Assembly: GCA_036262055.1 (NCBI GenBank)
Contig: DATAJP010000003.1
Location: 620,001-684,000 of the forward strand
Reading direction: 5' to 3'
Length of the DNA stretch: 64,000 bases
From: Ignavibacteria bacterium
Lineage (GTDB): Bacteria > Bacteroidota > Ignavibacteria > Tepidaquicellales > Tepidaquicellaceae
The position numbers and the translations under genes were made by a program. Under the pieces are notes generated by a model. That model saw only the letters and a list, made by a program, of their open reading frames with translations. It did not search any database and was not told the origin of the DNA. Positions 16,774 through 57,534 of this stretch are shown in pieces. Each line of letters begins with the position of its first letter. Position 1 is the stretch's first letter.

Positions 16774-19689
16774 ATGTTTAATAAAATCCTAAAAATGAGA
16801 TTTTTGCACGAAAAAGAACTGAAAAACAAGCCACGAATTAACACAAATTCTTCTGAAGTAGCTACTATTAACCAAATTAAGGAAGTCATTCCCGCGCAGG
16901 CGGGAATCCCAGTTTTTTTTATAATAGTTCTTACATTATTTTTCTCTAACATTTCATTCGCTCAACAAAACATCAATGATGTTTTCGAAAAAACCCTCTC
17001 CTACCGCGGACTTATAAAAGAAGATTTCACTTTCCCGATTAATTTCGAAGAACCTTCTCCCACCAACAACTCAAAATTAATTTTACCGCTCGTAAAAGAC
17101 TTGATGATAAATCCTTTGAAGTCAGAGGAAGTATTGAACAAAATTTCAGTTAACCAGCAATATGAACAAGAATATGATATTGCAGAACTAATAAATTTAT
17201 TTGCTTTTAATGATAATCGATTGGTTGTGAGAACAGGAAGTATTTTAAGAACTTATTCTGAAATCTATAATTATTTAATCAAGCTTTTAAATTTTGATTA
17301 CCATTATAAAAATGATAGATTTAAAGAATTGGGTGAAACTTCTTCAAATTTTCTTCTCGCTAATTATCAAAAAATTCTTTCAGATGATGAAGGAGGAAAT
17401 TCAAATGATATATTTGAGTTTAATCGTAACAGAGATTCATCTTGGTCTTTGACCAAAAGAATTTATGATGTCTTAAGTATATTCGATAAAGAAAGAACAT
17501 TGTCCCAGCCCGCTGAGAATTTAATTACAATACGAGAGATTAGAAATTTTTTTAAAGGTTTAGATGATTTAGGAAAGTTTAAAGAGTTTCTTGAAGAATG
17601 CAAACTTGAGAATAGTTATTTCAAAATTGTAATCGGTAGTTTTGAAAATGAAACTCACAAATTTGATGCTTCAGAAAAGATTATAATGGTTATAGATTTT
17701 GGTGGCAGCGATACTTATGAATTAAATAAAAACGTCAAATATATCCTCGACCTCGGTGGGAATGATACTTATGAGTCCGACAAAGACGGATGCGTTGCTT
17801 CGGCGTTTTTTGATAACTCATTTATATATGATAAATCGGGTGATGATAAATATATCGGAAAGAATTTCTCTGTAGGAGCGGCAATTTGCGGAATGGCTGG
17901 AATAATCGATGAAGAAGGAAATGATTTTTACTCAGGACAGACTTTCACACAAGGCGCAGGATTGTTTGGTGTTGGGTTTATTCTTGATAATAACGGTAAT
18001 GATATTTACAACGGCATTTCTTACTCGCAGGGTTTTTCTATGACTCAGGGAATCGGAATGCTCATCGACAACAAAGGTAACGATTCTTATTTGATTGACT
18101 CGCGTTCGCTTGATGTTACGCGATACAGCGATCATTATATTTCCATGAATCAGGGTTTCTCATACGGTCTTCGACCGTTTTATGCGGGTGGTATCGGACT
18201 GCTTCTCGATAATGAAGGCAATGATATTTATAACTCCGATATTTTCGGACAAGGAAGTGCTTACTGGTATGCGCTTGGAATTTTAATGGACAAAAACGGC
18301 AATGATAAATATAACGGCTATCAATACTCGCAAGGTGGAGGAATTCATTTTGCGGTCGGCTTGCTGAAGGATTATAACGGAACGGATTTTTATTCTACTA
18401 ATGGAGTCTCGCAGGGCTGCGGGCATGATGTCGGATTTGGAATGCTTCATGATGTTGCAGGCGATGATAATTATTCTGCAATAGGACTCTCGCAAGGCGC
18501 AGGAAACGCAAACGGCATTGGTGTATTCATTGATGAAAACGGGTCGGATGGTTATTTGAATCGCACACCGTCGAATACGCGTGGTTACGGAAATTACCGC
18601 CGTGATTACGGAAGCTTGGGAGTTTTTCTCGATGCCTCGGGAACGGATTTTTATTCAATGCCCGGTCAGGACAGCACGGTAATATCAGGTTCGACCTATG
18701 GAATAAGCGATGATTATTTTTTGCAGAACTTACAAGAACCGCTAACAACGAATAGTCAAACTCAAAATTCCGGCAATTCCCTATCACCTGATTTAAACAA
18801 AGATTATTCACAAGATGAATTATTCATAATGGCAAAAACCATCGAACCCATGTTTGCAGAGTATCAGAAATACGGATTTAATAAGCTTATTCGGGATAGC
18901 ACAAACACTGCGAGATATATTTTGAAATATCTCGGAAGCAGTGACCATCGTGATTTGCTTGTGCTGACAAATCTTGTGCAGAAAATCGGCTACTCAATGG
19001 CAATGGTTTTCAAAGATGAAATAAATAAATACCTGAACGGACAAAATAATTTAAACAGATTTGAGCTCGCTTATATATGCGGATTAATCGGCTTCACACG
19101 AAATGCAGAGTTAAAAAATGAGTTGCTCCAACTTACATTTGATAACAGCGACAGGGTTATATCCGAAGCAATAAATGCTTTAGGAAAAATCGACTATGAT
19201 AAAAACGATACTCAATTCATTGAAGACGTATCAATCAGATTTTCTGAAATTGTCGATGTCGGAACCCTGAACAAAGGCATGCTAAAAAATATCGCGTTCG
19301 CTATTAATAATTATTATTCCCAAACTAACTTTAATACACTTTTGAATTTAGCAGCATATGATTACTATGGAATACGTTTCAACGCTGCCGACGCATTGAA
19401 AAAATATGCGAGTGATTATTACAATGATTTATCAACCGGAATCAATTCAACGAATATAGTTTTTGTTCAACAGGCATTGCTGAACGGCTTTCAAAATTTA
19501 GATGATAATTTATTTATGAATTTTGTAAATGCAAATAAAGAAAATTTATTACTGACAGATGCAATGAAAATTACAACAGCTCAAATTATCCTTCTCAAAT
19601 CCAAATCAAGCTCAAATCCCGGCTTTCTGAATTGGGGGATTACTTTAATTAAAGAGATTGAAGCTTCTACAAATTTAAAAATCCGCTAA
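16774..19689 (+). CDS. Exported protein with G-x-D-x-Y repeats and C-terminal HEAT-like repeats
   Basis: The 971-residue product matches no family I can name. Residues ~46-65 (PVFFIIVLTLFFSNISFAQQ) are a signal-peptide core with a cleavage-like FAQ. Residues ~300-630 hold about ten units of ~33 residues, each with D-x-x-G-[NDST]-D-x-Y followed by a YSQG-x-G stretch and hydrophobic strands, suggesting a beta solenoid with acidic, perhaps calcium-binding turns. Residues ~690-960 are helical and HEAT-like (DRVISEAINALGKI; YGIRFNAADALKKYA). Oddly, codons 38-46 (VIPAQAGIP) are the translation of a palindromic repeat that also occurs between genes, so the repeat separates the ATG from the signal peptide. 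The true start is uncertain: no in-frame ATG lies between the repeat and the hydrophobic core. Confidence 0.75.
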   Translation: MFNKILKMRFLHEKELKNKPRINTNSSEVATINQIKEVIPAQAGIPVFFIIVLTLFFSNISFAQQNINDVFEKTLSYRGLIKEDFTFPINFEEPSPTNNSKLILPLVKDLMINPLKSEEVLNKISVNQQYEQEYDIAELINLFAFNDNRLVVRTGSILRTYSEIYNYLIKLLNFDYHYKNDRFKELGETSSNFLLANYQKILSDDEGGNSNDIFEFNRNRDSSWSLTKRIYDVLSIFDKERTLSQPAENLITIREIRNFFKGLDDLGKFKEFLEECKLENSYFKIVIGSFENETHKFDASEKIIMVIDFGGSDTYELNKNVKYILDLGGNDTYESDKDGCVASAFFDNSFIYDKSGDDKYIGKNFSVGAAICGMAGIIDEEGNDFYSGQTFTQGAGLFGVGFILDNNGNDIYNGISYSQGFSMTQGIGMLIDNKGNDSYLIDSRSLDVTRYSDHYISMNQGFSYGLRPFYAGGIGLLLDNEGNDIYNSDIFGQGSAYWYALGILMDKNGNDKYNGYQYSQGGGIHFAVGLLKDYNGTDFYSTNGVSQGCGHDVGFGMLHDVAGDDNYSAIGLSQGAGNANGIGVFIDENGSDGYLNRTPSNTRGYGNYRRDYGSLGVFLDASGTDFYSMPGQDSTVISGSTYGISDDYFLQNLQEPLTTNSQTQNSGNSLSPDLNKDYSQDELFIMAKTIEPMFAEYQKYGFNKLIRDSTNTARYILKYLGSSDHRDLLVLTNLVQKIGYSMAMVFKDEINKYLNGQNNLNRFELAYICGLIGFTRNAELKNELLQLTFDNSDRVISEAINALGKIDYDKNDTQFIEDVSIRFSEIVDVGTLNKGMLKNIAFAINNYYSQTNFNTLLNLAAYDYYGIRFNAADALKKYASDYYNDLSTGINSTNIVFVQQALLNGFQNLDDNLFMNFVNANKENLLLTDAMKITTAQIILLKSKSSSNPGFLNWGITLIKEIEASTNLKIR
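16882..16913. repeat. Palindromic repeat (GTCATTCCCGCG family) inside a coding region
   Basis: All 32 bases from GAAGTCATT to CCCAGT are identical to the reverse complement of 44431-44462. The arms ATTCCCGC(G) and GCGGGAAT form the palindrome. Here the repeat is in frame with the 971-residue protein and encodes EVIPAQAGIPV just upstream of its signal-peptide core. Confidence 0.85.
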
Positions 19690-43607: not shown

Positions 43608-44411
43608 TTATTTTATTTTAACCGAATTTATTTTACTGTTCAACTCTTTTGCTGCATTATAAACGCAGTCTTCAAATTCTCTCTGCTTGCAATTCTTAGG
43701 AGCGGAGTAAATTATTCCCCTGCTTGAGTTTATAAGAAATAATTTATTGTGCAGGGATTTCAGAAGCTTGCTTGCGTCACCATGCTGAGTACCAACGCCC
43801 GGTATAAGCAAAGACGTATTTTTGTTTTTCTTTGTGAACTCATCTATTTCTTTTTCATAATTTGCGCCGAACACATACCCAAGGTTGTTTCCCCACTTCT
43901 TGCTTCTATCTATAACCCATTGATATAAATATTTTGTTCCTGCTTTCAGATATTGAAAATCTTTCCCTCCCGGATTTGAAGTCAAAGCAAGAAGATATAC
44001 ATATTTGTCCTTTCTTTTAAGAAAAGGTTTAATCGAATCTTCACCCATATATGGAGCCGCAGTTATTGCATCGAAATCATACATATCGAAATATGTTCTT
44101 GCGTAAAGCTCAGATGTATTTTCAATGTCGCCGCGTTTTGCATCTGCAATTTTTATCATATGTGATGGAATATTCACAAGTAACTTTTCTAACGACCTGA
44201 GACCGTTAGGTGTTTCATAAAAAGCTATGTTTATTTTATATCCTGCAACCATCCTTGAGGTAATTGCAACTATATAATTATTAAACGCATAAACGGGGTC
44301 TTTAGCTTTTTTGAAGAAATCGGGGATTTTTTCGACGTCTGTGTCAAGACCAATAACAACATTGGAGTTGTTGTTTTTAATGACTTTTCTAAGTTTGGCT
44401 ATATATGGCAC
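43608..44411 (-). CDS. pyrF: Orotidine 5'-phosphate decarboxylase (type 2)
   Basis: A 267-residue TIM-barrel enzyme that makes UMP from OMP, the last step of de novo pyrimidine synthesis. Motifs: VIGLDTDVEKIP near the start, INIAFYET, the catalytic KIADAKRGDIENTS (Asp-x-Lys-x-x-Asp) and PGVGTQHGD. The longer form and the DAKRGDI motif mark the type 2 (mycobacterial-like) subfamily. The frame starts with GTG. Upstream, between dcd and pyrF, is a 32-base copy of the palindromic repeat. Other pyrimidine genes except dcd are absent from the window. Confidence 0.94.
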   Translation of the reverse strand: MPYIAKLRKVIKNNNSNVVIGLDTDVEKIPDFFKKAKDPVYAFNNYIVAITSRMVAGYKINIAFYETPNGLRSLEKLLVNIPSHMIKIADAKRGDIENTSELYARTYFDMYDFDAITAAPYMGEDSIKPFLKRKDKYVYLLALTSNPGGKDFQYLKAGTKYLYQWVIDRSKKWGNNLGYVFGANYEKEIDEFTKKNKNTSLLIPGVGTQHGDASKLLKSLHNKLFLINSSRGIIYSAPKNCKQREFEDCVYNAAKELNSKINSVKIK

Positions 44412-44430: not shown

Positions 44431-44462
44431 ACTGGGATTCCCGCCTGCGCGGGAATGACTTC
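44431..44462. repeat. Palindromic repeat (GTCATTCCCGCG family) between dcd and pyrF
   Basis: This is the exact reverse complement of 16882-16913 over 32 bases. The arms ATTCCCGC and GCGGGAAT make an 8- to 9-bp stem. It lies in the 66-base gap of an otherwise tight minus-strand cluster. Confidence 0.85.
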
Positions 44463-56138: not shown

Positions 56139-57128
56139 TTAAGCAGCAGCAGTAGTTTTTGGGTAAGACTCAGGATACAGTAAACACCTTACTTGATGCT
56201 CCCCTGCAAGAACCGGTGATATGACCGGGCAATCTTCAAATGCTTTCGGGCACCTCGGGTGGAAATAGCATCCTGAAGGCACGTTTGCAGGAGAAGGAAT
56301 GTCCCCTTTAAGAATTATGCGGGAAGATTTCTGTTCCGGGTCGGGAACAGGAGCGGCTGAAAGCAGAGCTTGCGTATATGGATGTTTTGGATGTTCATAA
56401 ACATTTTGAACTCCTGCACTTTCCACAATTTTTCCAAGATACATAATCGAAACGTTATCGGAAATATGCTCAACAACTGAAAGGTCATGCGAAATGAAAA
56501 GATAAGTCAGGTTCATTTCTTTTTGAAGTTCAATTAACAAATTTAAAATCTGAGATTGAATGGAAACATCAAGTGCCGAGACCGGTTCGTCGCAAACAAT
56601 AAACTTTGGTTCAACCGATAATGCACGTGCAATGCCGATTCTTTGTCTTTGTCCGCCTGAAAACTCATGAGGATATCTTCTCGCATGAATTTTTCTTAAT
56701 CCGACTTTTTCAAGAAGTTCTTCAACTCTTTTTTCTGCGGCTGCTCCTTCAGCTATGTGATGGAATTTTAAAATTTCTGTCAACATACCCCCGACTGTTA
56801 TTCTGGGGTTCAGTGAAGAATATGGGTCCTGAAAAATAATCTGCATTTGCTTTCTCATATCTTTCAGCTCGTCCTGAGACATTGCGGTTATATTCTTTCC
56901 GTCAAAATAAACTTCCCCCCCGGTCGGTTCGATTAATCGCAAAATACTTCTTCCTACAGTAGTTTTTCCGCAGCCGGATTCACCAACAAGCCCTAATGTT
57001 TGCCCGCGTTTTATAGTGAACGAAACATCATCAACGGCTTTTACATAGCCAATTGTTTTTGAGAAAAGACCTTTTTTAATAGGAAAGAATTTCTGCAAGT
57101 TTTTTACTTCAAGAAGTGTATCTGACAT
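56139..57128 (-). CDS. Peptide ABC transporter ATP-binding protein, OppF/DppF type
   Basis: A 329-residue ABC ATPase. Walker [10 protein letters not shown]-loop [14 protein letters not shown], signature [15 protein letters not shown] and Walker [13 protein letters not shown] are intact, and the C-terminal oligopeptide-transporter motif [17 protein letters not shown] with three Cys is the usual OppF/DppF iron-sulfur-like segment. The start is the ATG at 57128; 21 codons upstream in frame come from a palindromic repeat. Partner genes dppB and dppC are 16 kb away and no DppD-type ATPase is seen. The GIY-YIG gene with its flanking palindromes lies directly upstream. Confidence 0.93.
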
Positions 57129-57152
57129 TATTGTGTAATTAAAATTTAATAT

Positions 57153-57179
57153 GTCATTCCAGCGAAAGCTGGAATCTAG
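57153..57179. repeat. Left palindromic end of the GIY-YIG unit
   Basis: GTCATTCCAGC-GAA-AGCTGGAATC: arms ATTCCAGC and GCTGGAAT around a short loop. It lies between the GIY-YIG stop and the oppF start. Confidence 0.85.
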
Positions 57180-57180
57180 G

Positions 57181-57474
57181 CTAAATGCCACCTAATTCAT
57201 AATATAAATCTTTCCAACCAAGATTTATAGACTCAATTAATTCTATTTTCCATTTTCTTTGCCATGTTTTCATTTGTTTTTCACGTTCTATTGCAGCTAG
57301 TACGCTGTTAGTTTCTTCATAATAAACTAATTTATCAATTCCATATTTTTTAGAAAATCCATCAATTAATTTTTTCTTATGCTGTTCAACTCGTTGGAGT
57401 AAATTATTAGTAACCCCTATATAAAGAGTTCCATTTCTTTTGTTTGCCAAGATATAAACATAATAGCTTCTCAA
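57181..57474 (-). CDS. Stand-alone GIY-YIG endonuclease
   Basis: A 97-residue single-domain GIY-YIG nuclease. The GIY element is YYVYIL (residues 4-9) and YIG is 18-20; the catalytic set includes Arg28 in NNLLQRVEQH, His32 and a Glu in IEREKQMKTWQRKWKIELIE (Glu63/Glu65). This is the small UPF0213/YhbQ-like kind, without a DNA-binding domain such as those in homing enzymes. In-frame start is TTG at 57474; an ATG at 57479 is out of frame. The gene interrupts a minus-strand run between oppF and a T9SS gene. Flanking inverted palindromes suggest the enzyme may act on, or spread with, that repeat. Confidence 0.88.
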   Translation of the reverse strand: MRSYYVYILANKRNGTLYIGVTNNLLQRVEQHKKKLIDGFSKKYGIDKLVYYEETNSVLAAIEREKQMKTWQRKWKIELIESINLGWKDLYYELGGI

Positions 57475-57484
57475 ATCATAATGT

Positions 57485-57511
57485 CTGGATTCCAGCTTTC
57501 GCTGGAATGAC
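57485..57511. repeat. Right palindromic end of the GIY-YIG unit
   Basis: Reverse complement of the left copy with one mismatch (TCCAG versus TCTAG). It is 10 bases upstream of the GIY-YIG start codon and stays in frame with it. Confidence 0.85.
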
Positions 57512-57534
57512 AGAAATATTATTGAAATAGATAA

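Follow-up and report, generated by a model that had tools for sequence, protein, structure and literature searches.

Rickettsia palindromic elements (RPEs) are inserted in frame into protein genes, at regions that tolerate the added residues. REPtrons are RAYT (Y1_Tnp) genes flanked by GTAG REPs. According to Di Nocera et al. 2013 (PMC3733652), dRS3 of Neisseria and RPE-6 of Rickettsia conorii are CGTC-1 REPs. That study already places CGTC REPs inside genes, including R. conorii dnaE, and cautions that REPs found at the predicted N terminus of a gene may in many cases be extragenic; it lists CGTC REPs without a transposase association and concludes that they have no dedicated transposase (PMC3733652). 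Here we describe a putative CGTC-1-type REP lying in frame in the gene for an exported protein, between the available ATG codons and the hydrophobic core of the signal peptide, and consider how translation of that gene may start.

A palindrome in frame ahead of a signal-peptide core

The window, by which we mean the whole 64,000-nucleotide stretch of DNA analysed, contains a forward-strand ORF of 971 residues (16774–19689) for an exported protein with a GGNDxY β-strand repeat region and, at the C terminus, a helical region resembling HEAT repeats. Searches of Pfam, NCBIfam and the PDB with this protein gave no identity beyond weak HEAT matches. At 16882–16913, on the forward strand, the ORF contains the 32-base repeat GAAGTCATTCCCGCGCAGGCGGGAATCCCAGT, with an 8-bp stem (ATTCCCGC) and the 4-nt loop GCAG. 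An earlier note on this DNA regarded the repeat as a copy of an intergenic sequence at 44431–44462, and the two are indeed identical, as exact reverse complements; the second copy is on the reverse strand, upstream of a pyrF-like gene (43608–44411). The note also held that the repeat encodes EVIPAQAGIPV in frame, that ATG codons occur only upstream of it and that none lies between it and the hydrophobic core. Translation bears this out: EVIPAQAGIPV constitutes residues 37–47, in-frame ATGs are present at 16774–16776 and 16795–16797 (with a TTG at 16804), and from the repeat to the end of the core not only ATG but also GTG and TTG are absent. The hydrophobic core and c-region of the signal peptide, VFFIIVLTLFFSNISFA, occupy positions ~16912–16962. 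The note could not show that the palindrome is of a known REP class, nor that it is immediately preceded by a second dispersed repeat.

Distribution and class of the repeat

Exact ATTCCCGCNNNNGCGGGAAT palindromes number 106 in the 2.87-Mb genome, against 0 in the control, and a 24-mer REP core allowed up to 3 mismatches finds 146 copies (70 and 76 in the two strand orientations), against 0 for the reversed control; the repeat is thus not a product of chance. The consensus of 111 copies examined is GAAG-TCATTCCCGCG(C/A)AGGCGGGAATCC-CAGT; a minority of copies form the subfamily NTGTCATTCCC...GGAATCCAAAC. Very few of these copies are intragenic, the family being dispersed and mainly intergenic.

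Judged by its sequence, the genome-wide repeat corresponds to a CGTC-1-type REP of the dRS3/RPE-6 kind. Its stem is an 8-bp palindrome (ATTCCCGC/GCGGGAAT) with complementary AT at the first and second positions, and its loop has 4 nt, GCAG here and mostly GCAG, GAAG or GAAA in other copies. The unpaired tag is AGTC in the copy at 16882–16913 and TGTC in other genome copies, CGTC, TGTC and CCTC being the tags listed for the class (PMC3733652). The short tail is CCC in this copy, and the class-type CCA is found in the minority subfamily. With 146 dispersed copies the repeat is also of high copy number, as CGTC-1 REPs are.

As in CGTC-1, no association with RAYTs is seen in this genome. RAYTs were considered as mobilisers and rejected: the genome has four Y1_Tnp genes, none of them between an inverted pair of the CGTC-1-type REP. 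Three of the four (L076, L078 and L079) have palindromic terminal repeats of their own, that of L079 beginning with GTAG, and a single degenerate REP copy lies 382 nt from one Y1_Tnp gene. A search of the window against Rfam found no RNA family, and folding of the 5′ region of the 971-residue gene revealed nothing unusual beyond the REP hairpin (z −1.56).

The placement of the repeat relative to start codons is not uniform. For 24 of 84 REPs the hairpin edge is 13–22 nt 5′ of a start codon, versus 13.5 expected from uniform placement within the same intergenic spaces (P ~0.0005), and just one of the 84 is closer than 13 nt. Examples of this pile-up are found at L003, L005, L009, L081, L091, L103, L116 and L132. 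At L090:1536 a REP copy provides an ATG for a downstream ORF (MDSCLRRND-KVIKQ...). Within the window, the reverse-strand ORF at 56139–57191, an ABC-transporter gene, extends upstream over 57129–57191 through a REP (read as SLDSSFRWND), and probably has its true start at the ATG of 57128.

Homologues of the 971-residue protein

Homologues are present in 37 of 59 relatives (E ≤ 0.001). Full-length alignments with them begin at residues 21–56, nearly all at 43–56, i.e. after the repeat, and at that place the majority of homologues carry a signal peptide of the short MKK type, with SQ or AQ at its end. Because the alignments start after the repeat, EVIPAQAGIPV is an addition; the repeat-derived residues are present in no homologue among the relatives searched. 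A contig scan with the 971-residue protein gave no match, and an alignment-based scan gave homologues of at most ~52% identity and no close relative with an uninterrupted gene. In AlphaFold predictions (20 sequences), residues 1–44 of the protein are outside the fold, with pLDDT under 50.

Four homologues (L017, L027, L032 and L043) have no ATG at the N terminus and probably start at TTG, which suggests that non-ATG starts are normal in this group. Unlike these genes, the gene in the window does not have even a TTG after the repeat. The homologue at L020 (genome G018) contains three in-frame TAA codons and is probably a pseudogene. Additional in-frame inserts that resemble repeats (PPLTKGGQRGV, TPSRQGE) are found in the L039–L041 homologues, in a loop ahead of FSCIIDL.

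In-frame palindromes in sister species and in other genes

In L023, L033 and L037, from three species of a sister family, the homologue of this protein has another palindrome in frame at the equivalent position, and its n-region reads MKKLINN-INPRSQ...VWER-KIFNLIIF. The outer form of this palindrome is GTTCCCAAAC...GTTTGGGAAC. The L023 insert is encoded by CGTTCCCAAACTCTGGTTTGGGAACG, and those of L033 and L037 have the same outer palindrome plus a nested TCCGCCTGYGGYGGA. The palindrome is absent from the closely similar homologues L024, L036 and L039, and is itself dispersed in the sister genomes, with 5–6 places in each of three of them.

The 111 REP copies examined include four that lie in an open frame and are not separated from the body of the protein by a start codon, namely those in the 971-residue gene, a gene at L083, a TonB-receptor-like gene at L085 and dnaE (L129). 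In three of the four the REP is in or beside the signal peptide. The L083 gene (L083:14137-15012) begins MNKTYGI-GIPAFAGMT-SLILFIVLIFPFEAKSQ, or MNKTYGI[GIPAFAGMT]SLILFIVLIF with the repeat bracketed. The L085 gene (L085:1504-3000) reads MKKLFVFFVNLFFLSVII-GIPAFAGMT-SQNG, and here the REP frame GIPAFAGMT could furnish a signal-peptidase cleavage site. In dnaE (L129:1580) the REP lies in frame in a loop that has just three residues in the Thermus enzyme. Compared with its homologues without the insert, the 971-residue gene has an in-frame insertion, as expected of an RPE-like intragenic element.

The second repeat and the upstream reading frame

The second dispersed repeat, CCACGAATTAACACAAATT, is located at 16831–16849 on the forward strand, directly 5′ of the REP and in the same open frame. 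The genome contains 24 copies of it (CACGAATTAACACAAAT, up to 2 mismatches; control 0), and the order of a CACGAATT repeat followed ~25 nt later by a REP recurs at L231 and L227. Given this second repeat, roughly residues 11–47 would derive from imported repeat DNA; on sequence grounds, the segment from ~16807 to 16913, between ATG AGA TTT TTG and TTT TTT ATA ATA, looks like such an import. This dispersed repeat, CACGAATTAACAC(A/G)AAT, for which we know of no name, reaches up to 80 copies in one relative and is arranged in tandem in G014.

If the insert is removed in thought, what remains would be an unremarkable signal peptide of the MRF(F/L)FIIVLTLFFSNISFA type, comparable with MKIFFFLVFILGINISYS (L035) and MKKVLFLLFLAFRTLYS (L026). 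The uninterrupted ancestral sequence is a reconstruction rather than an observed sequence, since the nearest homologue is only ~52% identical.

The frame that contains the repeat is open for 50 codons before it, and several stops close the other two. With mononucleotide shuffling, an open frame of 50 codons has a chance of 0.007 and one of the 36 codons from the ATG a chance of 0.035, and 36 open codons upstream are reached by 6.6% of the open frames that run through other REPs. The open upstream frame thus favours translation from an upstream ATG without amounting to proof. Codon usage is uninformative in this respect, with a score of −3.7 for the upstream 36 codons yet −13 for the true signal-peptide region. 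Lysine and arginine are absent from the ten residues before the core; they are retained in L037.

How translation may start

We favour a model, to which we assign a probability of about two in three, in which the signal peptide has been split by the REP and the second repeat while the old upstream ATG continues to serve as the start, giving a longer n-region. A CGTC-1-type REP, with a second dispersed repeat ahead of it, would have been inserted between the start codon and the signal-peptide core, and the total insert would have preserved the reading frame. As the frame was kept, translation would still start at the old upstream ATG, preferably 16795 (ATG AGA TTT TTG), otherwise 16774. The resulting n-region would span ~40–46 residues, including EVIPAQAGIPV, and because n-region and signal peptide are removed on export, the mature protein would be unchanged. 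The model takes the codon used to be one of these two ATGs, the long n-region to support export and the insertion to have come about by REP mobility, not by recombination between repeat tracts. It draws on the multicopy nature of the REP, the homologues without the insert, the open frame and the comparable in-frame palindromes in sister species and in other genes. The main doubt concerns export, which may be weaker because the ten residues before the core include no Lys or Arg.

The earlier note had left a choice between a new N terminus and a non-standard start codon after the repeat. A new N terminus is the better supported of the two, by the frame that is open to an ATG, the closure of the other frames and the parallel insertions, but only in modified form: the start is most likely the original upstream ATG of a signal peptide that has been split, and not a newly created one. 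The weaker rival, in which the REP belongs to the 5′ untranslated leader and translation begins after it at a non-AUG codon, is unlikely in our view. Its likeliest codons would be the two ATAs at 16921–16926 (forward strand), 13 and 16 nt past the hairpin and so within the genome-wide REP-to-start peak of 13–22 nt; at L081 a REP precedes ATGATG at the same distance, and the published caution about extragenic REPs at N termini (PMC3733652) points the same way. However, AUA is a very weak start, the open upstream frame would be left unexplained and the product, MIVLTLFFSNISFA, would have ~14 residues versus 17–19 in homologues. It would also have no basic n-region, which is the reason for our low estimate.

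A gene whose original start was destroyed by the insertion, so that it is no longer properly expressed or exported and is an incipient pseudogene, would fit the lack of a canonical start beside the core, the lack of basic residues nearby and the three in-frame stops already present in the G018 homologue. We consider this quite unlikely given that the remaining 920 codons are intact, contain no stop and keep the conserved positions. The real start could likewise be concealed by misassembly of the T8 tract or of the ATAs; a run of eight T does follow the repeat, and the genome is assembled into only 4 contigs, which suggests long reads. The correct frame, however, is open as given, and a shift in the T-run would not recover an upstream start because both other frames contain several stops just upstream of the repeat, making such an error very improbable. 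We consider the probability close to nil that the residues encoded by the repeat belong to the protein as a normal conserved element. The earlier note proposed to look for them in distant homologues as evidence of this; none of the relatives searched has them, an outcome that favours the note, and the alignments begin directly 3′ of the repeat.

A GIY-YIG unit between inverted REPs

A candidate source or mobiliser of the REP is a 361-bp unit elsewhere in the window (57152–57512, reverse strand), where two REP variants in inverted orientation enclose an ORF for a GIY-YIG nuclease (57181–57474, TTG start, 97 residues). An inverted pair of tagged REPs within 220 bp was found at 15 of 68 loci of GIY-YIG genes in or near this subfamily, and at 12 of the 36 loci of the motif-defined subfamily; only 0.9% of control windows from the same loci contain such a pair (Fisher P ~5e-16, with windows that overlap and are not independent). 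In Shinella, Neorhizobium, Rhizobium, Azospirillum, Aeromonas and Neisseria, the GIY-YIG gene is bordered on both sides by CGTC-tagged REPs, which belong to different stem families. Among 395 genomes of the Bacteroidota phylum, this GIY-YIG is found in 27 of the 30 that have an exact CGTC-1 REP and in 134 of the 365 that do not, a comparison that ignores kinship.

Besides the unit at 57152–57512, loci from several phyla have a small GIY-YIG gene with CGTC-tagged REPs, usually an inverted pair, on its flanks: L244, L263, L266, L281, L286, L290, L295, L305, L307, L309, L312, L313, L317 and L318. The Azospirillum unit (L313) is situated between sufB and sufC. None of the papers searched joins GIY-YIG with REPs.

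It may be that the nuclease moves REPs, or that REP pairs are a homing site for its gene; the data are an association and not proof. Tentatively, and with somewhat less than even confidence, we suggest that CGTC REPs, the copy in the 971-residue gene included, are the terminal repeats or homing target of a minimal mobile unit with a single small GIY-YIG gene between inverted REPs, that the nuclease is the missing mobiliser and that each REP family has its own GIY-YIG. If so, signal-peptide n-regions would be among the few in-gene landing sites that survive selection.

Implications

Intragenic REP insertion is already known, and the 971-residue gene is a new example with a clear anatomy and a parallel case. 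It illustrates how a mobile palindrome can be absorbed by a working gene, with the mature protein untouched, by way of a segment that is cleaved from the exported protein. For gene calling, REP-derived N-terminal peptides such as VIPAQAGIP may be a real leader in some genes and an untranslated leader in others. The GIY-YIG unit is a more novel lead than the signal-peptide insertion. As a concrete candidate for the transposase that is lacking in the account of Di Nocera et al. (PMC3733652), a GIY-YIG gene between inverted CGTC REPs, seen in Bacteroidota, Alphaproteobacteria, Aeromonas and Neisseria, makes the question of the CGTC REP mobiliser testable.

Comparison with known systems

The insertion resembles RPEs in that a palindrome is read as protein in a tolerant region and leaves the gene unbroken. 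It differs in that the host is an exported protein and the site is a signal-peptide n-region, which is removed on export. The unit at 57152–57512 resembles REPtrons in consisting of one small nuclease gene between inverted REPs, but the enzyme is GIY-YIG (PF01541) and not Y1_Tnp.

The closest likeness is to the CGTC-1 REPs (PMC3733652), with which the repeat shares the 8-bp stem ATTCCCGC, the 4-nt loop, a GTC-tagged end and a CC tail, as well as a high copy number and a mostly intergenic location with some copies in frame in genes, dnaE among them as in R. conorii. In contrast, the copy in the 971-residue gene has AGTC instead of CGTC and a CCC tail instead of CCA, and its host is of an Ignavibacteria-like lineage, the term Ignavi being absent from PMC3733652. 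Finally, whereas that study reports no associated transposase, in this genome the repeats flank a GIY-YIG gene.
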